From a virus: DNA of 30,294 nt. Shown piece by piece: positions 1,830 to 30,294 of this stretch; positions within the stretch are counted from its first letter, which is position 1, and each line of letters opens with the position of its first letter. The notes beneath the pieces are model-generated. The model made no database searches. It was not told the origin of the DNA and worked only from the letters and a program-made list of their open reading frames with translations. The stretch is from positions 1 to 30,294 of IMG/VR virus record IMGVR_UViG_3300042905_000506; one strand, given 5' to 3'. Made by a program: the position numbers and the translations under genes.

Positions 1830-3845
1830 CTACCAGGCTATATAGTATAGCGGAACGGTGGTTCCTATAGCAAGTGCTGTCCCAGCATTGTTTTCAACAT
1901 ATCCTCTTGCATATCCAGCAGATGCTGCGCCATTAATGCCAGTATTTATCTGTCCAACATAAAGTCTTGATGCCGTCCCCCTACCCATAAAAATTATTCC
2001 ATTAAGAGAAGTAGATCTACTTCCAGTAACATCAATGACGAAAAATCCAGCAACAGAAGATGTTGATACGCTCAGATTTTCTGCGCTGTATCGCGCTACT
2101 CTAGAAACGAATTCTGTGGTGGCTAATTGAGTGTTGCTTGTTCCTGCTGCCTGCGTTGTTGAAGTTGCAGCAACTGTTCCGCCAAACGATGCTGCTCCGG
2201 TAATATATGCACCACCAACGACATGTAGTGCGGAAGCAGGAGTAGATGTGCCTATACCAACCTCATTGTTTGCCGAATCTACAAACAGCGTTCCACTATC
2301 TACATTTAGATTTCCAGTTATTGCTGTACTTCCAGTAACAGATAAGAATGATGCAGTAGTAAGACCAGTAGAAGTGTTGACACCAAAAATCTCAGTAGAT
2401 GCAGTTAACTGACTTGATCTAACAGAAAATGTTGGAGATATAAGTAAGTCTGACCATACAGAGGTGTTGCTATCGGAAATGAATAGTCGTAGGCCATTGT
2501 TTCCAGATGAATTAGGAGTGAAAAGTCTAATTGTTCTAGAGCCAGATGTAGTTCCTAATTGTATCGCTGCACCGCTCGCTGTTCCAGCGTATGTCGCATC
2601 TCCTAGACCAAGATATAGCCCATTAGCCCCTCCTAAAATTGCTGAGCCAGAAAAGAGAGTGCCGCTTGCTGAAAGATTTCTAGTGACCAGCGCCCCTCCA
2701 ACAACATGGAGTGCAGAGGCTGGGGACGTTGTAAGAATACCTACTTCATTATTAGTTGCATCTACAAAAAGTGTTCCCGAATCTACATTGAGGCTACCAC
2801 TTACAGTTAGGTTACTCAAAGTTCCTAAAGAGGTCAGGCTGGAATTAACGATGGCTGCGGGGAGCGTTGTGCCAGTGATTAGGGAGGCGTTAATACTTGA
2901 CGCCGTTCCAGCGTGCGATGCGACGGTGGCAGATGCCACAGTTCCAGTTACTAGAGATCCAGCAATAGACGATGCTGTTCCAGCATGAGTGGCCACAGTT
3001 GCGCTACTAGATATTGTTGAACTTGCTGATCTATTAGCAAATCCAACAGATGCTGTAGTTATGAATGCTTGTACGGCGCTGGCCTGCCATATTGATGCAG
3101 AACTGTTATAGAATAAAAAATCATTATTATTTGGATTTGATGCAGAAACATTGTGTAATTCAAATAACTCTAAGCCATTTTGTGGGCTAAGAAAAATTTG
3201 CCCAGCATTGGCACTTTGCTTGATTGAATAGCCTAGAAAAACCAAATGATTTGGTGCGTATATTTTTTCAGATGTGAACTCTCCTGGCGTGGAAGAAAGC
3301 CACAATTGAGTTCCAGGTGCATAAGATGCTGTATTAACATCTTGTATTATACCGAACGTAGCAACAAAACCTTGAGCACCATTATTAATCTGCTCAGCCG
3401 TCATTCCTAAAACTTTGGTTGACGTAGACTCAGCGTTCGATGTTGCCTTCGTTATTGAAGGTCGCTGACCTTGAGCGCCAGAAATATATACTACCGTTCC
3501 CTTCGGCATGGCAGATCCAGTGCCATTGTAACAATATGCAACCTGCTCCTGACCGATATCAAGGTTGACATTTCCACCTTTTAGACCAACAGTAAGAGTT
3601 CCTTCACCATCCGACCATTGTAATCTTGCTACCGATGCACCAGAAATAGGATTAAGAGAAAAGTCTATGTAATCAGCACTCAGACCGTAGGAGGCAGTAA
3701 CATTGTGAAGACTATTCCACTGTGAATTAAAATATAGCCTCAGCACATTGGATGCAGTATTGAAATACATATTTCCAATTGATGCTGAGGACGGATCGCT
3801 TGTCGCACTATGTAGTCCAACTGGCGTTAAAAATCTTCTAGACAT
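1830..3845 (-). CDS. Tail fibre protein, paralogue with shared C-terminal tip
   Basis: A 671-aa Ser/Thr/Ala/Gly-rich fibre protein. The N-terminus (MSRRFLTPVGLHS, then NMYFNTASNVLRLYFNSQW) resembles that of the next fibre gene, suggesting a common attachment domain. The middle carries modules of the form LFVDATNNEVGI followed by TPASALHVVGGA, typical of beta-helical trimeric phage fibres. The last ~115 residues (from FGGTVAATSTTQAAG to YYIAW) closely match the end of the fibre at 28191-30284. The gene begins 3 bp after the stop of the upstream fibre gene. Its likely role is host-surface recognition. Confidence 0.88.
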   Translation of the reverse strand: MSRRFLTPVGLHSATSDPSSASIGNMYFNTASNVLRLYFNSQWNSLHNVTASYGLSADYIDFSLNPISGASVARLQWSDGEGTLTVGLKGGNVNLDIGQEQVAYCYNGTGSAMPKGTVVYISGAQGQRPSITKATSNAESTSTKVLGMTAEQINNGAQGFVATFGIIQDVNTASYAPGTQLWLSSTPGEFTSEKIYAPNHLVFLGYSIKQSANAGQIFLSPQNGLELFELHNVSASNPNNNDFLFYNSSASIWQASAVQAFITTASVGFANRSASSTISSSATVATHAGTASSIAGSLVTGTVASATVASHAGTASSINASLITGTTLPAAIVNSSLTSLGTLSNLTVSGSLNVDSGTLFVDATNNEVGILTTSPASALHVVGGALVTRNLSASGTLFSGSAILGGANGLYLGLGDATYAGTASGAAIQLGTTSGSRTIRLFTPNSSGNNGLRLFISDSNTSVWSDLLISPTFSVRSSQLTASTEIFGVNTSTGLTTASFLSVTGSTAITGNLNVDSGTLFVDSANNEVGIGTSTPASALHVVGGAYITGAASFGGTVAATSTTQAAGTSNTQLATTEFVSRVARYSAENLSVSTSSVAGFFVIDVTGSRSTSLNGIIFMGRGTASRLYVGQINTGINGAASAGYARGYVENNAGTALAIGTTVPLYYIAW

Positions 3846-5198: not shown

Positions 5199-5675
5199 TT
5201 AGTTAGTAAACCTACCGCCCCAGAAGTCCCTCTTCATGACATTATAGTTTACATAACCATCTGGAATTGCTGCCAGACGGCACTTACCATTTTCCTCTAC
5301 TTGGAACGCTATGATGTGACATACACCATTACCTTCAAAGTGTGAGCAGTTCCCGCACTTGACACCAATCGCTGCCTCTGGATTTCTCTCTGGTGGATCG
5401 TATCCTGCCCAGATCCCACTACCATCTTCATCAAACTTGCCATATTTTTCAGCAATTGCCATCATTGCATCGTGAAATTCTTTTTCGTCTGGTGTAAGTT
5501 GTTCGTAAAGCATTCCGCTATCGTCCTTCTTCATGTTAGATTCGGCGGCGTAGAGGGCACGCTGTTGCTCAATTGCTGCTCTGCGTGATGAGTGTGTTCC
5601 GCGAACAGTCCCATCTGGACCAACAACTGAATATCCAGACTTACCTCTGTAGTTTTGTCTAATATCGTATGGCAT
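5199..5675 (-). CDS. Conserved phage protein with Cys motif (158 aa)
   Basis: The N-terminal ~45 residues (MPYDIRQNYRGKSGYSVVGP, then GTHSSRRAAIEQQRALYAAE) match a small domain common in phage head and portal-associated proteins. The C-terminal part has a cysteine pattern C-G-N-C, GVCHI and GKCRLAAIPDGYV that could hold a metal or Fe-S site. The ribosome-binding site AGGAGG lies 4 nt before ATG 5675 and directly abuts the 3' end of the tmRNA. This gene and the tmRNA are therefore likely on one transcript. Specific function is unknown. Confidence 0.7.
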   Translation of the reverse strand: MPYDIRQNYRGKSGYSVVGPDGTVRGTHSSRRAAIEQQRALYAAESNMKKDDSGMLYEQLTPDEKEFHDAMMAIAEKYGKFDEDGSGIWAGYDPPERNPEAAIGVKCGNCSHFEGNGVCHIIAFQVEENGKCRLAAIPDGYVNYNVMKRDFWGGRFTN

Positions 5676-5686
5676 TTTTCCTCCTG

Positions 5687-5910
5687 TGGAGCAGGGCGGA
5701 ATTGAACCGCCGTGCCACTAGTTTATTTCTAGTCCTAACGTTGTGTTGCTGTAACTACTATTGTACTACGAATGCAATCTTCTGTTCCCACGCGATTGCG
5801 GCGCGGCACTATCATGCTGCTAGTGCGAAGGCGTTTTGTGAGTTGCCGTTTATTTTGTTTGTTAGTTTTGTGCGACTAGAAACTTGCTAGGGTCGAAACC
5901 TTTCTGCCCC
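5687..5910 (-). ncRNA. ssrA: Transfer-messenger RNA (short form, 224 nt)
   Basis: The 5' end GGGGCAG pairs with CTGCTCC at the 3' end to form a 7-bp acceptor stem. It has the conserved D-loop-like TTTCGAC and a T-arm GGCGG-TTCAATT-CCGCC, with discriminator A at 5687; CCA is not encoded. A tag reading frame at 5847-5812 encodes GNSQNAFALAA, then tandem stops TGA TAG; ALAA is the classic proteolysis tag end and AFALAA is seen in actinobacterial tags. Upstream is UAAAC, similar to the usual UAGUC-type context. A pseudoknot PK1 is plausible (CTAG/CTAG with AGTTT/AAACT). Bacterial tmRNAs are usually 350-400 nt, so pseudoknots must be lost here; one perfect GCAATC/GATTGC stem remains. The first 49 nt overlap the glycosyltransferase gene. 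Confidence 0.88.
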
Positions 5911-7067
5911 GTGCTTTGTGGCTTAGGCTTTGGCTTAATCCTATTTTTTTGTGCATTCATGTGAATAAGTTCAATAGCCTCAGACCACTTGTACTTCATC
6001 ATAAATAGACTTAAGTTTTTTACAACTACTTCGTAGTTCTTAATTCTTTCCTGTTGTCTAACTTCTGGATCTCTAAGTTCTTCTAAATGCCTGATCCAGT
6101 CGCGTGGCTTCTTGGCTATCCTACCACATCCCATTTCTGCAAGATCGCGGTATTCCTGGGTGTCTGATGCAACGAATGGAATTCCGCTCAGGGCATACTC
6201 CATACCCTTTAGACAACTCTTTGCTTCATTGAATGGATTATTGGTCAGTGGTACGATGCCGATATCGATAGGCATGAACAAGTTTCCATAGTATTGTGGT
6301 CTTACTCCGACATATCCAGACATTCTATCTGGATTAAAGCCTGCCTCTTCAGCGAACCACTTCTCTCTTGTTAGAACAATGCCAGAATGATGAAACTTAA
6401 GATCATATTTTTCTAGAAATGTTTTTAGTGGTGCTCCAACTTCTTTAATATCTTCAACTCTCCATAGCATGATTCCTACCCAGCCAATTGTTGGCTTCCA
6501 GCCAGAGAAATCTTGCCTAAAATAGAAAGTTTCTGGAATCAGTGAATTCGGAACCCTATAAACATTATTATTGTGTCTTAAAGACTTTTGCTCAAGAAAC
6601 TTAGTGCTGGCGATAATGCCATCAACCTTTGAATAATTATTGATAAGAAAGTTTCTATTGTTGTCTGGAGAATTCTTAGGGTCGGTGGTATGGAATGCCA
6701 TATTGTCTGGTGGAAGTTGTTCAAAGTGATCATCGGTATCAATGATAACAGTCTGTCCGTACTCTCTAGCCTTGGTGATATATTGCTCAGAATCCTTGTG
6801 CATAAATAGTTTTAGAACAATTGCGTCAAGTTTATCAAAACACTCATCATATTTTGTTACGATTCCAGCCTTTCCAAACTTTAGTTTTTCAACTGGAGGA
6901 ACTATTACAAACCCCTCGCCGTCTTTCCATCCTATTTCTCCTACGCCAACCTCATGACCAATTTCTCTAAGACCATGAGCAGGAATCATGCATCTCATGT
7001 GGGTGCAGCCACCAGGTTGAGCCTGAACGTGGTCACCCCAGTCGGTAGACCCAAAACCAATCCGCAT
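5862..7067 (-). CDS. GT-B fold glycosyltransferase
   Basis: A 401-aa protein with the layout of family-4-like (GT-B) glycosyltransferases: an N-terminal glycine-rich start (MRIGFGSTDWGD), an IIDTDDH segment near residue 108, and the C-terminal donor-binding half. In that half, DIGIVPL (268-274), FNEAKSCLKGMEY (279-291) and GIPFVAS (295-301) form the typical sugar-nucleotide site. It probably transfers a sugar to phage DNA, a virion protein or the host surface; the acceptor is unknown. I start at ATG 7067 (AAAGG, 6 nt spacing) because the longer frame runs through tRNA-Met. Its last ~15 codons lie inside the tmRNA 5' domain. Confidence 0.87.
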   Translation of the reverse strand: MRIGFGSTDWGDHVQAQPGGCTHMRCMIPAHGLREIGHEVGVGEIGWKDGEGFVIVPPVEKLKFGKAGIVTKYDECFDKLDAIVLKLFMHKDSEQYITKAREYGQTVIIDTDDHFEQLPPDNMAFHTTDPKNSPDNNRNFLINNYSKVDGIIASTKFLEQKSLRHNNNVYRVPNSLIPETFYFRQDFSGWKPTIGWVGIMLWRVEDIKEVGAPLKTFLEKYDLKFHHSGIVLTREKWFAEEAGFNPDRMSGYVGVRPQYYGNLFMPIDIGIVPLTNNPFNEAKSCLKGMEYALSGIPFVASDTQEYRDLAEMGCGRIAKKPRDWIRHLEELRDPEVRQQERIKNYEVVVKNLSLFMMKYKWSEAIELIHMNAQKNRIKPKPKPQSTGQKGFDPSKFLVAQN

Positions 7068-7100
7068 GTTGTACCTTTCTGTTTGCACATATTGTACCAG

Positions 7101-7172
7101 TGTCTCCATCAAGAATCGAACTTGAACTAAGGGATTATGAGGCCCTTGTGATAACCATTTCACTATGGAGAC
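7101..7172 (-). tRNA. tRNA-Met(CAT)
   Basis: A 72-nt cloverleaf: acceptor GTCTCCA/TGGAGAC, D-stem GTGA/TCAC, anticodon loop CTCATAA, T-arm TCAAG-TTCGATT-CTTGA, discriminator A. The anticodon stem has a C31-U39 mismatch. With a CAT anticodon this could be elongator Met or a lysidine-modified Ile tRNA; a paired first base argues against initiator. CCA is not encoded. Confidence 0.85.
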
Positions 7173-7175
7173 TAT

Positions 7176-7226
7176 GGTGTGGCGGGAGTGTTGCCGCACA
7201 TTTGATTGTGTTTCTCCCGCCACACC
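7176..7226 (-). other. 13-bp GC-rich stem-loop just upstream of tRNA-Met
   Basis: GGTGTGGCGGGAG (7176-7188) is a perfect inverted copy of CTCCCGCCACACC (7214-7226), separated by a 25-nt loop. It fills the gap between the lysozyme-like gene stop (7238) and tRNA-Met, ending 3 nt before the tRNA 5' end. No U-tract follows, so it may be a U-less terminator or a processing or stability element. Confidence 0.8.
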
Positions 7227-7237
7227 TAGTATATAAA

Positions 7238-7858
7238 CTATACTTTTTTAGGAGTGCATTTACCAGGGAATAATGACCACCCTATATTGAATGGTACAAT
7301 CACCCATGAATATGTCAATCCAGAGCCCCACAGTGAGTAATACATTCCTGCATTTACATACCATGAGTCTTTCTTAAATGAATATCCATAGCCCCAGTTA
7401 TGCATTCCATCTTTCAAGAAATGCTTTCTTACAATTTCTGATTGTTTTTTCTTGTCCAGCATATTGTCTCTGGACCACCATGATTTTCCAGACCATGCAC
7501 TTGTCTGAATTTGCCAAGTGCCTAACGCACCTGTAAACCAAGGTGAACTTTCTGTAAGCGACTGATGCTTAGATTCACGCCAGGTTATCGCCCAGGCTCC
7601 TCTTAGCATCCCAGGTCTATTAAAACCTGCGTTAAACAGAATCTTTGCCTGCTTATCATTACACTTATTTGGCAGAATCCAAACTTTCTTTTCATCTGCC
7701 TTTCTTTCTAATGCGTCAGCGGTGGCAAAGTTTCCCGTACCTTCCGCCAAGGGCGCAGACTTAGCATACGCCATGCTTGGTGCAGCAATAAAAGTAATTG
7801 CCAAAACTGCAGCGGCAATCCAATCTACTGCTAAACCAATTTGGTTTTTTGTCGTCAT
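7238..7858 (-). CDS. Secreted lysozyme-like / lytic transglycosylase-type protein
   Basis: A 206-aa protein with a signal peptide: KNQ start, hydrophobic core AAAVLAITFIAAPSMA and a likely cleavage after AYA (about residue 32). The mature part has WRESKHQ with candidate catalytic Glu95, and GALGTWQIQTSAW (about 111-123), matching the E...G-x-W/Q pattern of lysozyme-like transglycosylases. It probably cleaves peptidoglycan during lysis or, unusually, from outside. I chose ATG 7858 because it has a near-perfect AAGGAGG site 5 nt upstream and begins the signal peptide. A -35/-10 pair lies upstream. It is flanked by tRNA genes. A virion-associated role is an alternative. Confidence 0.75.
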   Translation of the reverse strand: MTTKNQIGLAVDWIAAAVLAITFIAAPSMAYAKSAPLAEGTGNFATADALERKADEKKVWILPNKCNDKQAKILFNAGFNRPGMLRGAWAITWRESKHQSLTESSPWFTGALGTWQIQTSAWSGKSWWSRDNMLDKKKQSEIVRKHFLKDGMHNWGYGYSFKKDSWYVNAGMYYSLWGSGLTYSWVIVPFNIGWSLFPGKCTPKKV

Positions 7859-7886
7859 ATTGACCTCCTTGGGCGGCAACTCTACT

Positions 7887-7915
7887 AGAATATCACGGAT
7901 AGAAAACAATTACAA
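7887..7915 (-). promoter_or_regulatory. Promoter candidate for the lysozyme-like gene
   Basis: On the minus strand TTGTAA (7910-7915) and TATTCT (7887-7892) are separated by 17 nt, and TGA precedes the -10 (TGATATTCT, an extended -10). A start near 7880 gives a ~22-nt leader containing AAGGAGG before ATG 7858. It lies between tRNA-Ala and the gene. Confidence 0.5.
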
Positions 7916-7935
7916 TAAAAATACAGCCCAGTGAG

Positions 7936-8006
7936 TGGAGAATAACGGAGTCGAACCGATGACTGTTCCTTGCAAAAGAACTGTTATACCATTTAACTAA
8001 TTCCCC
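7936..8006 (-). tRNA. tRNA-Ala(TGC)
   Basis: Cloverleaf of 71 nt: acceptor GGGGAAT/ATTCTCC with one G-U pair, D-stem GTTA/TAAC, anticodon loop TTTGCAA in stem GTTCT/GGAAC, T-loop TTCGACT. One T-T mismatch lies in the T-stem. Discriminator A; no encoded CCA. Confidence 0.88.
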
Positions 8007-8010
8007 TTAG

Positions 8011-8082
8011 TGGTCCCTGACGGATTCGAACCGCCGACCTTTTCGGTGTAAACGAAACACTCTACCGCTGAGTTAAAGGACC
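8011..8082 (-). tRNA. tRNA-Val(TAC)
   Basis: Cloverleaf of 72 nt: acceptor GGTCCTT/AGGGACC, anticodon stem TTTCG/CGAAA with loop TTTACAC, T-arm with TTCGAAT, discriminator A. It sits 4 nt upstream of tRNA-Ala. Confidence 0.92.
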
Positions 8083-8087
8083 GTGCG

Positions 8088-8161
8088 AGCCTCAGATCGG
8101 ATTCGAACCGATGACTTGCCGCTTACAAGGCGGCTACTCTGGCCAACTGAGTTACTGAGGC
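8088..8161 (-). tRNA. tRNA-Thr(TGT)
   Basis: Cloverleaf of 74 nt: acceptor GCCTCAG/CTGAGGC, D-stem ACTC/GAGT, anticodon stem GCCGC/GCGGC with loop CTTGTAA, T-arm ATCGG-TTCGAAT-CCGAT, discriminator T. Confidence 0.93.
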
Positions 8162-8165
8162 TTGG

Positions 8166-8236
8166 AGCGAACGATGGGAATCGAACCCACACCGTCTGCT
8201 TGGAAGGCAGAGGCACTACCATTATGCAACGTTCGC
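8166..8236 (-). tRNA. tRNA-Gly(TCC)
   Basis: Cloverleaf of 71 nt: acceptor GCGAACG/CGTTCGC, anticodon stem TCTGC/GCAGA with loop CTTCCAA, T-arm GTGGG-TTCGATT-CCCAT, discriminator T. Confidence 0.93.
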
Positions 8237-8240
8237 CTAG

Positions 8241-8313
8241 CGCCCTTGGCTGGATTCGAACCAGCGACTAATGGATTAGAAGTCCACTACTCTATCCTCT
8301 GAGTTACAAGGGC
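8241..8313 (-). tRNA. tRNA-Arg(TCT)
   Basis: Cloverleaf of 73 nt: acceptor GCCCTTG/CAAGGGC, D-stem ACTC/GAGT, anticodon stem GTGGA/TCCAT with loop CTTCTAA, T-arm GCTGG-TTCGAAT-CCAGC, discriminator G. It reads AGA/AGG, which are frequent in these genes. Confidence 0.93.
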
Positions 8314-8317
8314 TTGG

Positions 8318-8392
8318 TTGGGCGGGTGGGATTTGAACCCACGATACACGGCTTATAAGACCGCTTCCAAAACCAGACTAGGATACCGCCCA
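8318..8392 (-). tRNA. tRNA-Ile(TAT)
   Basis: Cloverleaf of 75 nt: acceptor TGGGCGG/CCGCCCA, anticodon stem GCGGT/GCCGT (two G-U pairs) with loop CTTATAA, variable GTATC, T-arm GTGGG-TTCAAAT-CCCAC, discriminator A. TAT reads ATA directly. Most bacteria instead read ATA with a lysidine-modified CAT tRNA, so this is an unusual isoacceptor. Confidence 0.85.
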
Positions 8393-8394
8393 TC

Positions 8395-8412
8395 GAATCA
8401 TGCAGATGATTC
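8395..8412 (-). other. 7-bp stem-loop just upstream of tRNA-Ile
   Basis: GAATCAT-GCAG-ATGATTC is a perfect 7-bp hairpin on a 4-nt loop. It ends 2 nt before the tRNA-Ile 5' end and overlaps the last codons and stop of the DUF7455-like gene. It could halt RNase trimming or mark processing between mRNA and tRNA. Confidence 0.6.
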
Positions 8413-8643
8413 TGACTTAGGGTTAATTGTATCCCTTTCGTCTATAATGTCAAGGGCTTTTTCATAAATGGAGGCTTCCACTTTATTAAAGTGATGACCG
8501 CAGAAATATAGACTACCAGTTTCAAATTTAATTAATACAAATGCTTGTGCTGGACAGTTTCCATGATCACACCGATCCAGTTTGGTAAGAATTCCGTGGC
8601 TGGGCTTTTCAGTTGTTTCGGCCTGCATGACTGCTGTTTCCAC
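8398..8643 (-). CDS. DUF7455-like zinc-binding protein
   Basis: An 81-aa protein with the pattern LDRCDHGNCPAQAFV, then SLYFCGHHFNK. This resembles small actinobacterial DUF7455 proteins, where a CxxxxC pair and a C-x-H-H pair bind one metal. GTG 8643 is chosen as start because a strong AAGGAGG site lies 4 nt upstream; the ATG five codons later is too far from it. It lies between tRNA-Gln and tRNA-Ile. Molecular role is unknown. Confidence 0.78.
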   Translation of the reverse strand: METAVMQAETTEKPSHGILTKLDRCDHGNCPAQAFVLIKFETGSLYFCGHHFNKVEASIYEKALDIIDERDTINPKSESSA

Positions 8644-8689
8644 AGCACCTCCTTGTGTATATGACTATTTTATCATTGTTGATATTACG

Positions 8690-8760
8690 CTGCGGGACTA
8701 GGATTCGAACCTAGACAAACAGTTCCAAAGACTGTCGTGCTGCCATTACACAATCCCGCA
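8690..8760 (-). tRNA. tRNA-Gln(TTG)
   Basis: Cloverleaf of 71 nt: acceptor TGCGGGA/TCCCGCA, D-stem GTGT/GCAC, anticodon stem ACAGT/ACTGT with loop CTTTGGA, T-arm CTAGG-TTCGAAT-CCTAG, discriminator G. Its 5' base directly abuts the stop codon of the 61-aa gene. Confidence 0.94.
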
Positions 8761-8946
8761 CTATTCTTCTGTTTCGTCCCACCTGATTATCATTGATGCA
8801 TAACGCAGACCCTCAAGAAACCATCTTATTCTATCCATATCGTTATCGTTTTCTTGTGGGTAGTAAGAGTTTATCGCACTCTCTATTTGAGATGCAAATA
8901 TTTCTCGCCAATGTTTTTGGCATTCATCGTTAGTGTGGATTTCCAT
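8761..8946 (-). CDS. Small acidic hypothetical protein (61 aa)
   Basis: A 61-aa protein beginning MEIHTNDECQKHWREIF, with an ATG at 8946 preceded by GAGAG. It is mostly helical and acidic, without a signal, membrane segment or metal motif. It overlaps the tiny membrane protein gene upstream by 17 nt, and its stop codon touches tRNA-Gln with no gap. I do not recognise the family. Confidence 0.65.
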   Translation of the reverse strand: MEIHTNDECQKHWREIFASQIESAINSYYPQENDNDMDRIRWFLEGLRYASMIIRWDETEE

Positions 8947-9022
8947 TTTCTCTCATAAATCTATCGGCAAATGCCCAGCCAAATACCACGCCGATAAATA
9001 GTATCAAAAGTTTATTTTTCAT
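8930..9022 (-). CDS. Tiny single-pass membrane protein (30 aa)
   Basis: A 30-aa frame from ATG 9022 to TAA 8930: MKNKLLILFIGVVFGWAFAD, then a short charged tail. One hydrophobic segment (residues 5-19) after a basic start predicts a single membrane span with a short charged C-terminus. It starts 2 nt after the tRNA-Pro discriminator base, so no ribosome-binding site exists outside the tRNA. If the tRNA 3' end is cut, the message would be leaderless, which actinobacteria tolerate well. It overlaps the following gene by 17 nt, a recurrent spacing here. A lysis-accessory role is possible but unsupported. Confidence 0.5.
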   Translation of the reverse strand: MKNKLLILFIGVVFGWAFADRFMRENGNPH

Positions 9023-9023
9023 G

Positions 9024-9097
9024 TCGGAATGAAAGGATTTGAACCTTCGACCCCTTGCTCCCAAAGCAAGTGCGCTACCAAACTGCGCCACATTCCG
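9024..9097 (-). tRNA. tRNA-Pro(TGG)
   Basis: Cloverleaf of 74 nt: acceptor CGGAATG/CATTCCG, D-stem GCGC/GCGC, anticodon stem CTTGC/GCAAG with loop TTTGGGA, T-arm GAAGG-TTCAAAT-CCTTT, discriminator A. Confidence 0.94.
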
Positions 9098-9570: not shown

Positions 9571-10107
9571 CTATTGTACCACTTTTGAGCAATAGTCATA
9601 CATCACAATTCCAGATGCGGTGCCGACATTTAAAGATCTTACCGAACCATATTGTTGAATATATACTATGTCATCGGCAAAGTTTAGTACGTCATGCGAG
9701 AGGCCCCGCCCCTCTTCACCAAAAACCATAACAGACTTAGGAGACCAAGAATATTCATTGACTACCTTTGCATCTCCCACATTATCAATGGCAACGATAC
9801 GATAGCCATCGTTCCTAAGACTGATAAGAACGTCCATAATGTTGTCGGCATGATGTACATGCTCGTAGTGATGCGTTCCAACAGCCCCGCGTTTGTCCCA
9901 TCTTTTGATTCCACAACGAATCACCCTCTTCCCAAGAAATGCATTGCAATTTCTTACGACATTAGAAAAATTAAAATCTCCATTTATTCTTTCTACCACC
10001 ACAACAAACTCATTGCGCTTAGCATCTAAGTTGGCGCGGATAGCATCATCATGCCAGTATTTGTAAAAATCCGTAACGTTTCTAGTATCTGTTGTCAACT
10101 GCTCCAC
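9571..10107 (-). CDS. SpoU/TrmH-family RNA 2'-O-methyltransferase
   Basis: This 178-aa protein has the three SPOUT motifs: motif 1 NFSNVVRNCNAF (N48, R52), motif 2 VFGEEGRGLS (128-137) and motif 3 QQYGSVRSLNVGTASG (151-166). These form the knotted S-adenosylmethionine site and methylate ribose 2'-OH of tRNA or rRNA. The size fits a minimal TrmH/TrmL-type enzyme. Nine tRNAs and a tmRNA lie just downstream, so a phage tRNA is a natural substrate; that is inference. The GTG at 10107 is used as start; TTG 10098 would give a 17-nt overlap with the upstream gene and a better spaced GGTGGAG. Confidence 0.88.
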   Translation of the reverse strand: MEQLTTDTRNVTDFYKYWHDDAIRANLDAKRNEFVVVVERINGDFNFSNVVRNCNAFLGKRVIRCGIKRWDKRGAVGTHHYEHVHHADNIMDVLISLRNDGYRIVAIDNVGDAKVVNEYSWSPKSVMVFGEEGRGLSHDVLNFADDIVYIQQYGSVRSLNVGTASGIVMYDYCSKVVQ

Positions 10108-28190: not shown

Positions 28191-30294
28191 CTACCATGCA
28201 ATATATGAAAGTGGAACAGAGTTTCCTAGGGCCACCGCGACACCGGCATTCGTTTCAACATAGCCACGAACATATCCAGGAGATGCTGCACCATTAATTC
28301 CAGTATCAAGCGCGGCCACTATTAGTCTTGGTGCCGTTCCTCTAGATGTGGCAACAAATCCATTTATAGAATTTCCTGGATTTACTGCTAAAACAAAGAA
28401 TCCTGCAACAGAAGATGTATTAGGGCTTGGTGCTCCATTATACTTAACCATTCTGGAAACAAATGCTGTTGTGGCAAGAGATGTGCTATCATCTCCAGAT
28501 GCTTGTGTTGTAGAGGTTCCAGTAATTGTGCCACCAAAAGATGCTGCTCCAGTAACATATGCTCCACCAACGACATGCAATGCTGAAGCGGGAGTAGAAG
28601 TGGCAATTCCTAGTCTTTGTGTGCTAGTTAAAATTGCTGCTAGTGTCGATGTGCCAGCAGAATTTCCTGTGTAGAATTGAAGACTGGACGGTATCCCACC
28701 AGCCACGCTCTGTCCAGCACTTTCTGATGTAATGTATGCTGAGTTGGTGGCTGTACCAGCAATACTTGGACCCTGGAACATAATCGTACCAAGATCCATT
28801 CCAGAAGTAGCAGAAGCAGAGGCACCAAAGTTTTTTCTAAATAAGAAATATGCTGCATTGTCTAAACTGTTTGTATTTTCTAAAATTAATTGAGGAGCGA
28901 AGTTTGATGAATTTGATATTGTTACGTTACCAGATCCATTAATTGTTCCTCCAACTGCAAGATTGGAAACTATGCTTGCCGTTGTTCCAACGTAAAGTGA
29001 CGATATGGCGCTAGCAGCGCCTACGGAACGGAACGTTCCTCCAACTGCAAGATTGGAAACTATACTTGCTGTTGTTCCAACGTAAAAAGATGACAGGGCG
29101 CTAGCAGCGCCACCAATATAAAGTGACGACAAGGCGCTTGCAGCGCCCACGGAACGGAACGTTCCTCCAACTGCAAGATTAGAAACAATACTCGCTGTTG
29201 TTCCAACATATAGTGTTGAATTTGCACTAGCATTTCCAACTAGAACCGCGTCCCCTCCAACTCTTAATGTAGAGGATATGCTTGCTGTTCCGCCCATAGT
29301 TGTATTTCCACTAATGCTGGCGGTGCCAATAACTGTTAGTGGATTAGTTGGGGATGTAGTTCCTATGCCTACTCTATTATTAGGAGAATCTACAAACAGT
29401 GTTCCACCGTCTACATTAAGACCTGCGTCAATAAGCACCCCAGAAATTCCAGCAACGTGAAGTGCAGAGGCTGGTGTGACAGTTCCTATTCCTACTTCAT
29501 TGTTTGTTGCGTCTACGAATAAGGTGTTAGTATCAACGGTTAGATTTCCATATAAAGTTGTATTAAGATTTTGATCTATTCTTAGACCCAAGTCATTATT
29601 CCCATTTGCTATATAAACATTATAGTTCGACACAGCGCCGTCATAATTTATAGAAACCACATCAATATTATTTGACAGCGAGGCCAGAGCATCAACCCCT
29701 ATAGCAATATTTCTTGATCCTGTTGTACTTGCTTTTAGGGCATTTTTTCCAATAGCAATGTTTTGAGAGACAGTGTTAGAATAAAGGGCAGATGCACCAA
29801 TTGCAATATTATCCTCGCCACTGGTGTTACTCTGTAATGCCCCAAATCCAACTCTAAAATTAGTATTGTTGCCACTACCAATTCCAACGTTAGTGCCATT
29901 AATGAGTGAATCTCCAATAGACGCTGAAATAATAGACGCAGAATCAAATACCGGATCAACCGCCTTAAGTATTCCAGTATATGTTAAGGAAAATGGAGAA
30001 GTTAATGGATCGTTACCAACCCATATAGAATATGTTGGCCGATTGGCACTAAGATTTAATAGACCAAATCTGGTTAATCTTATTGTTCCGTTGCTTTCTA
30101 AAATAACACTAGCACCAGCAGTGCCACCTATAATTGAACTTGCAGTTAGTTGCCAGCCACCTAAAGAGCCAACTGATGCTGTGATGTTTTGAGCATTAAC
30201 CGATCCTGTGAATTGACCAGAATTAGCGGTAATATCGCCAGTTATAGAGGCACCAGTTGCAGTTAAAAATCCTGTGCCAGACACTCTGAATGGG
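28191..30294 (-). CDS. Tail fibre protein, 5' end beyond right edge
   Basis: At least 697 aa of a beta-rich fibre; the frame is open to the right edge, so the N-terminus is missing. Parts: a YadA-head-like stretch with NIAIGASALYSN and NIAIGKNALKAS; then modules LFVDATNNEVGIGT and TPASALHV; then ~30-aa repeats (TASIVSNLAVGGTF, then RSVGAASAISSLYVG) encoded by near-identical DNA; then a C-terminal tip ending LSYIAW that matches the 671-aa fibre at 1830-3845. It is the likely receptor-binding or side fibre. Confidence 0.88.
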   Translation of the reverse strand, partial: PFRVSGTGFLTATGASITGDITANSGQFTGSVNAQNITASVGSLGGWQLTASSIIGGTAGASVILESNGTIRLTRFGLLNLSANRPTYSIWVGNDPLTSPFSLTYTGILKAVDPVFDSASIISASIGDSLINGTNVGIGSGNNTNFRVGFGALQSNTSGEDNIAIGASALYSNTVSQNIAIGKNALKASTTGSRNIAIGVDALASLSNNIDVVSINYDGAVSNYNVYIANGNNDLGLRIDQNLNTTLYGNLTVDTNTLFVDATNNEVGIGTVTPASALHVAGISGVLIDAGLNVDGGTLFVDSPNNRVGIGTTSPTNPLTVIGTASISGNTTMGGTASISSTLRVGGDAVLVGNASANSTLYVGTTASIVSNLAVGGTFRSVGAASALSSLYIGGAASALSSFYVGTTASIVSNLAVGGTFRSVGAASAISSLYVGTTASIVSNLAVGGTINGSGNVTISNSSNFAPQLILENTNSLDNAAYFLFRKNFGASASATSGMDLGTIMFQGPSIAGTATNSAYITSESAGQSVAGGIPSSLQFYTGNSAGTSTLAAILTSTQRLGIATSTPASALHVVGGAYVTGAASFGGTITGTSTTQASGDDSTSLATTAFVSRMVKYNGAPSPNTSSVAGFFVLAVNPGNSINGFVATSRGTAPRLIVAALDTGINGAASPGYVRGYVETNAGVAVALGNSVPLSYIAW
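28945..29220 (-). repeat. Direct repeats inside the tail fibre gene
   Basis: The sequence GTTCCTCCAACTGCAAGATT recurs at 28945, 29035 and 29161, spaced 90 and 126 nt (90 + 36). Between copies, a GGCGCT-AGC-AGCGCC hairpin (or close variant) occurs three times. The repeats encode 30-aa fibre modules, and the 36-nt difference is one partial module, so copy number can change by slippage or recombination. Confidence 0.9.

Follow-up and report, generated by a model that had tools for sequence, protein, structure and literature searches.

PK1 was once reported to be the sole pseudoknot of tmRNA needed for tagging and was later shown to be replaceable (PMC3968760). As published, E. coli tmRNA still tags when PK1 is replaced by a hairpin (PMC3968760) or by single-stranded RNA (PMC4236655). 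Loss of PK1 is not always harmless, as linker changes around P2 and PK1 are reported to have abolished tagging in E. coli in a chimera study (PMC4236655). In mycobacteriophage Wildcat, the tmRNA is described as the most highly expressed lytic gene (PMC7474061). Among the matches listed from titles and abstracts of the open-licence literature, none presented a phage tmRNA that is in one piece and lacks PK1; this comparison does not extend to the 79 phage sequences of PMC11915505. By terminase, the nearest named relatives of the virus studied here are Streptomyces phages of the Stanwilliamsviridae (about 61% identity). Ten of the 12 records that we searched carry a tmRNA over the cut-off, and Coruscant and Rhodococcus phage Weasels2 gave none over it. 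Nine of these ten tmRNAs encode tags ending in ALAA (for example, ANSKFAFALAA and ANSRNAFALAA), and the tag of BillNye is ADNIDAEYEALCAEYALVTV. By eye, we also noted TTGACA in the 3′ part of nine of ten phage tmRNAs (L172–L181; L181 has TGGACA), which is perhaps part of the next gene's promoter lying inside the tmRNA gene.

The DNA analysed here (the window) is an IMG/VR virus record of 30,294 bases. Its minus strand encodes a one-piece tmRNA of 224 nt from G1 to the discriminator A73 (Table 1). The initial annotation had placed a miniature phage tmRNA at 5687–5910, exactly these two end points, and had left the strand unstated; the acceptor stem, GGUUUCGAC, T-arm, tag frame and tandem stops that it listed could each be located in the RNA. 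The acceptor stem has 7 bp and includes G3.U70, and the 5-bp T-stem carries a UUCAAUU loop. The 5′ part precedes the 3′ part, so that the gene order is standard and not that of a permuted two-piece tmRNA. Since the DNA after A73 reads CAGGAGG, CCA is not encoded. ARAGORN called the gene at 5686–5910 of the minus strand with the tag GNSQNAFALAA and two stop codons, and called no tmRNA in 1000 dinucleotide-preserving shuffles of the whole window. Two computational checks had been proposed in the initial annotation. The covariance-model search gave a divided answer: within a 601-base stretch searched at E ≤ 1, RF00023 matched end to end (model positions 1–374) with an E value of 4.8e-16, but the score of 43.5 bits is below the cut-off of 47 bits. 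At the curated gathering cut-offs, Rfam accordingly reported only nine tRNAs in the whole window and missed the tmRNA; of seven records holding relatives, four passed the 47-bit cut-off and three were below it. In structure prediction, the folding energy had a z score of -3.1; an alignment-based fold is given below.

Table 1. Positions of the tmRNA, its parts and the adjoining genes in the window
Feature	Position	Strand	Evidence and remarks
Upstream glycosyltransferase-like ORF	5862..7223	-	phrog_7162, E 1.3e-25; last 49 nt inside the tmRNA; C-terminus GQKGFDPSKFLVAQN
Mini-tmRNA gene, RNA 1–224	5687..5910	-	A73 at 5687; ARAGORN, RF00023, covariation over seven sequences
Acceptor stem 5′ strand, GGGGCAG	5904..5910	-	Includes G3 of G3.U70; paired in 7/7
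Helix P2, 5′ side, RNA 19–37	5874..5892	-	Changes on both sides in 6/16 pairs
CUAAC, RNA 46–50	5861..5865	-	Pairable with GUUAG at 5735–5739; at the site of the would-be PK1; holds UAA stop of upstream frame
Tag frame GNSQNAFALAA with UGA UAG, RNA 64–102	5809..5847	-	ARAGORN, codon comparison
Helix H5 around tag end and stop codons, RNA 85–105	5806..5826	-	Changes on both sides in 1/6 pairs
Single H-type pseudoknot, read as PK2	5774..5804	-	S1 RNA 107–110/118–121; S2 RNA 112–117/132–137; loop GGAACAGAA
GUUAG and P2 3′ side, RNA 172–196	5715..5739	-	Covariation alignment
T-arm, RNA 200–216	5695..5711	-	Changes on both sides in 3/5 pairs
Acceptor stem 3′ strand, CUGCUCC	5688..5694	-	Covariation alignment
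Downstream gene, MPYDIRQNYR...	5199..5675	-	ATG at 5675; no Pfam or PHROG match

Six further members of the same clade (L083, L084, L087, L116, L005 and L085) came to light when the terminase and the downstream gene were used as queries and a pattern scan was run; a search with the glycosyltransferase added none. The miniature form is thus conserved as a one-piece tmRNA in seven distinct sequences from IMG/VR phage contigs, which measure 223–227 nt to A73 and all have a tRNA-like domain (acceptor stem with G3.U70, D-loop remnant, T-arm and A73). We left out of the alignment L004, whose tmRNA is the same as that of L087, and L111–L115, which are repeat fetches of the same contigs. ARAGORN misses the tmRNA of L087 and L004, presumably because its resume codon is AAC. 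Two other searches were set aside. When 50,697 phage records were searched by BLASTN with the window tmRNA plus flanking sequence, the result was seven short stretches with E values from 0.4 to 5, which we took as chance, and the pattern GGTTTCGAYCC...GGAACAGAA returned 37 stretches in a genome collection, likewise attributed to chance because ARAGORN called no tmRNA in the 37 fetched loci.

A consensus structure of 49 pairs, consisting of the acceptor stem, T-arm, P2, a CUAAC/GUUAG extension, H5 and a pseudoknot, was evaluated on the seven sequences against 500 shuffles. Paired cells amounted to 97.1% (shuffled mean 87.4%), a figure that is favoured by the partial derivation of the structure from these same sequences; 17 of the 49 pairs were changed on both sides (shuffled mean 9.7), and the covariation score was 0.343 (shuffled mean 0.156). 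None of the shuffles reached any of these three values, and the number of further pair types did not differ from the shuffles (217/500 as high). Sliding the partner strand by 1–3 columns lowered the paired cells to 36–44% and left 0–2 pairs changed on both sides. Besides the stems so marked in Table 1, changes on both sides were found in 5/6 pairs of pseudoknot stem S2, 1/4 of S1 and 1/7 of the acceptor stem. The CUAAC/GUUAG pairing showed none (0/5); being invariant in all seven members, it is unproven as a helix by covariation. RNAalifold, which cannot draw knots, independently gave S2, P1, P2, T and H5, and paired part of the D region in place of the outer two pairs of P2. As in standard tmRNA, H5 is present, and so is the long helix P2 that connects the two domains.

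The initial annotation had expected that few pseudoknots could remain. We found one that is supported by covariation, out of the usual four, with no PK1 and no second knot shared by the clade. The stretch from P2 to the resume codon (26–27 nt, nearly all A and C) allows no stem of even three pairs in any of the seven members. Between position 25 and the resume codon, none of them could form a knot whose stems had four or more pairs, and no such knot was found in L212; one was found in each of the eight others examined (L218, five from Stanwilliamsviridae and two from cells), though their stretches are longer, so that a knot found there does not prove PK1. When stems of three pairs are allowed, members admit chance knots that would use bases of P2. 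The CUAAC/GUUAG helix would close the loop at which relatives have PK1. On the other side of the retained pseudoknot, 32–34 nt separate it from GUUAG; only two of the seven members (L084 and L116) could form a knot there with four or more pairs per stem, so that the clade shares no second knot. A GUAGU/GUUAC stem downstream of the pseudoknot can form in the window and L083, and no stem is common to all seven. We call the retained knot PK2 from its place after H5 and from a loop shared with other tmRNAs. L212 (5182–5484, plus strand) is a 303-nt phage tmRNA with a longer 3′ part, in which a short hairpin GGUA...UACC, as judged by eye, stands in place of PK1; it could represent an independent or an intermediate loss of PK1.

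The tag was then compared codon by codon. The resume codon of the window, GGC at RNA position 64, had been singled out in the initial annotation as an unusual glycine codon. The reading as GGC stands, but it is not special, since the clade uses GGC (4/7), GCA (2/7) and AAC (1/7) at this place; glycine is also an ordinary first coded residue in Bacillus-type tags. Codons 1–6 vary at the residue level. In codons 8–11, which encode the final ALAA, three of the four third positions vary and none of the eight first and second positions do; in codons 8 and 9, the third position is in addition base-paired within H5. All seven members keep the tag frame, the A at -4 from the resume codon, the hydrophobic end and the stop codon. 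Position -5 is U in six of them and C in L116; A at -4 and U at -5 fit mutational data reported for E. coli tmRNA (PMC2481249). The resume codon lies at position 64–65 in the clade, 62 in L212, 83 in L218, 87–91 in the ten Stanwilliamsviridae and 93–100 in the fetched cellular genes, save one doubtful call (L157).

The window carries genes for terminase, RecA, DNA polymerase III alpha and WhiB. The WhiB gene points to an actinobacterial host, a use of whiB that has precedent in published work (PMC6802176, PMC10202952). Searches for an SmpB gene found none in 30 phage records (16 comprising the window and its relatives and 14 further ones, several being fragments), with a control that was positive in 10 of 14 genomes; the tmRNA would therefore depend on host SmpB. 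In the class of an Actinomycetes MAG, 277 of 296 genomes match tmRNA at E ≤ 1e-20. The best-scoring matches listed from these genomes span 356–401 nt and include no short host tmRNA; in seven genomes of 1.3–1.5 Mb the tmRNA measures 366–371 nt. A separate observation concerns Gordonia phage GMA2 (L283, NC_070761.1, 60391–60421, minus strand), where an unannotated 31-base stretch matches a cellular tmRNA at its 3′ end (96.8%); ARAGORN called no tmRNA in the 801 bases around it, and the stretch may be an attachment site or else a TLD-only RNA. Elsewhere in the window, ARAGORN found nine tRNA genes (Met, Ala, Val, Thr, Gly, Arg, Ile-TAT, Gln and Pro; 7100–9097, minus strand), adjoined by a gene for a SpoU-type RNA methyltransferase (9571–10107, minus strand; Pfam E 3.6e-27). 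An ORF at 7238–7909 (minus strand; no Pfam or PHROG match) resembles by eye a secreted protein of the lytic transglycosylase type, and two long repetitive ORFs near the record ends (1830–3845 and 28191–30284, minus strand), tail-fibre-like by eye, have similar C-termini, both ending in YIAW.

Judging from these comparisons, the RNA is most likely a one-piece tmRNA that is strongly reduced yet functional, serving ordinary trans-translation with host SmpB; the host of the phage is probably an actinobacterium. The initial annotation had suggested that it tags or frees stalled ribosomes during infection, perhaps when host mRNA is degraded. We infer its expression, charging, use of SmpB, tagging and timing from its features as follows. 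It would be cut from a longer minus-strand transcript by tRNA-processing enzymes, and host enzymes would add CCA and, via G3.U70, alanine. Host SmpB and EF-Tu would carry it to ribosomes that had stalled on an mRNA lacking a stop codon. The frame would be set by the A that lies four bases ahead of GGC, so that the stalled protein would receive Ala-GNSQNAFALAA; the -ALAA end would direct the tagged protein to a host protease, and the ribosome would be freed at UGA. An alternative, which we regard as unlikely, is that the RNA acts as a decoy, blocking host trans-translation by binding to stalled ribosomes or to the host's SmpB or AlaRS, in the manner of the mycobacteriophage DS6A RNA. The phage origin and the strong reduction would suit such a role, and a DS6A-like RNA is reported to inhibit tmRNA in E. 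coli (PMC4131195, PMC11915505). A decoy needs no tag, however, and here every member retains a frame with A at -4, a final ALAA and a stop codon, along with third-position changes; the pseudoknot is kept by covariation as well.

The point of most interest at this locus is a conserved gene overlap, which the initial annotation had missed in its account of the locus. In all seven members, the upstream glycosyltransferase frame continues for 49 nt into the tmRNA, in one and the same frame, and terminates at the UAA within the invariant CUAAC. Of 19 loci from the glycosyltransferase search, six have the tmRNA, ten have none and three run off the contig; the tmRNA-bearing loci are 72–96% identical and the tmRNA-less ones 62–67%. 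Because 10 of the 16 complete loci lack a tmRNA at this site, it is dispensable in the wider group. The ten tmRNA-less glycosyltransferases stop 14–15 codons past an ELIxx motif, and in the tmRNA-bearing members the spacer from this motif to the tmRNA is 14, 15 or 16 codons, in frame; thus, the tmRNA begins about where the tmRNA-less genes end. The spacer frame is open in every member, which is weak evidence for coding given a chance of openness of 0.26–0.69 per sequence and the relatedness of the lineages. Mainly synonymous change in the spacer was seen only in the close pair of the window and L083 (3/4) and not in the other six equal-length pairs. The glycosyltransferase ORF as listed includes a tRNA-Met within its 5′ end, the gene being bracketed by a tRNA and the tmRNA; translation probably begins close to the end of this tRNA at 7100 or beyond it.

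On the other side, a Shine-Dalgarno-like GGAGG (5684–5680) lies two bases past A73, ahead of the downstream gene. The tmRNA motif was found at most 260 nt before this gene in 4 of 25 loci checked (of 29); the L085 tmRNA is not adjacent to it, and in L005 and L116 the tmRNA is followed by a different gene. A candidate promoter 28 bases upstream of the tmRNA (TTCACA-16-TAGGAT) was rejected: it is not kept in L087, as judged by eye, and a promoter-like site proves nothing here, since the scan gave 10 sites against 7.8 +/- 3.0 in shuffles.

Since RNase P makes tmRNA 5′ ends (PMC3985003), maturation of this tmRNA should leave the glycosyltransferase mRNA without a stop. The overlap may, doubtfully, serve as a switch, each transcript yielding either the tmRNA or a complete glycosyltransferase message and enzyme level being tied to tmRNA maturation. 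Excision of the tmRNA from the shared transcript would remove the glycosyltransferase stop codon, translation of the cut message would stall at the new 3′ end, and the product would be tagged for destruction by the very tmRNA that had been excised. The conserved overlap offers a predictable natural non-stop message. The same facts could be read to mean that the element works mainly in cis, in 3′ processing or stability of the glycosyltransferase mRNA, with tagging secondary. The exact 49-nt overlap with its stop inside CUAAC in all seven members and the in-frame spacer of 14, 15 or 16 codons would be expected from such a role, but the conserved tag end, the pseudoknot and the alanine identity would be left unexplained and, one close pair aside, there is little sign of coding constraint in the spacer, so that we hold this reading to be quite improbable. 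Least probable of all is a decaying, functionless remnant of a larger tmRNA, as might be supposed from the short length, the Rfam score below the cut-off and the absence at this site in relatives; paired changes in seven of eight helices and the coding constraint on the tag end, across seven diverged sequences, speak against it.

A functional, reduced tmRNA therefore remains our preferred reading, and it can be set beside the known forms. With standard bacterial tmRNA (RF00023) the clade shares the tRNA-like domain, G3.U70, the tag frame, H5 and P2, and it differs in having one supported pseudoknot where four are generally described (PMC3968760). The usual length of 350–400 nt given in the initial annotation holds for cells, the fetched cellular actinobacterial genes measuring 349–394 nt by ARAGORN against 223–227 nt in the clade, but not for related phages, whose one-piece tmRNAs, as fetched here, are mostly 261–303 nt. 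Those of the Stanwilliamsviridae (Gilson, Samisti12, Muntaha and others, several of whose records annotate the tmRNA) are likewise one-piece and phage-encoded, lie close to tRNA genes in the two records viewed, as in the window, and mostly encode tags of the ANS...FALAA type; as in the clade, a knot follows H5, with loop GGAACAGAA or GGCAACAGAA. They are longer (267–298 nt) and, unlike the clade, could form PK1 in all five tested. From terminase, tag and loop, common descent with these tmRNAs is likely. Scanning viral sequences for FALAA codons with GGAACAGAA after them picked out 26 stretches: five from the clade, seven other one-piece tmRNAs (261–303 nt), 12 permuted and two uncalled by ARAGORN. 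As the scan selects for this loop, its frequency is meaningless, yet the loop is not confined to the clade, occurring also in the 12 permuted-order ARAGORN calls in viral contigs, which were found by a pattern that included it. Two-piece permuted tmRNAs of marine phages (for example, Melnitz) are also phage-encoded with fewer pseudoknots (PMC9004378); they are described as typically keeping PK1 and PK2 (PMC3985003), whereas the clade keeps one knot, read as PK2. Plastid tmRNAs, reported to have fewer or no pseudoknots (PMC3985003), are likewise reduced. The Wildcat-type tmRNA of mycobacteriophage Cosmo, with 419 nt and a 22-residue tag, is far longer, and the DS6A-type RNA is a tRNA-like domain only, without a tag frame, whereas the window tmRNA has a tag frame with a constrained end.

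Gene overlap with t(m)RNA as such is already known: PMC4131195 counted 379 cases in which a Pfam-positive gene overlaps a t(m)RNA gene on the same strand, the latter being mostly tRNAs judging by the families named. The glycosyltransferase, having no Pfam match, would have escaped that count. In Cosmo (L282, KP027195.1, 58865–58896), an annotated HNH CDS overlaps the tmRNA 5′ end by 32 nt on the same strand. In some Carsonella, too, an upstream CDS is reported to run into the tmRNA (PMC4131195). There the overlapping gene is smpB, leaving a non-stop message in a way said in that source to occur nowhere else, and one strain has lost the tmRNA (PMC4131195); in the clade a glycosyltransferase gene takes that place, and covariation shows the structure to be maintained. 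The Carsonella PV tmRNA (202 bp) is shorter than that of the window. The clade provides naturally occurring one-piece tmRNAs that lack PK1 and have a single supported knot, including one member with AAC at the resume position. It has phage relatives that keep PK1 and one, L212, in which PK1 is likewise missing; the minimal working tmRNA thereby becomes directly testable.
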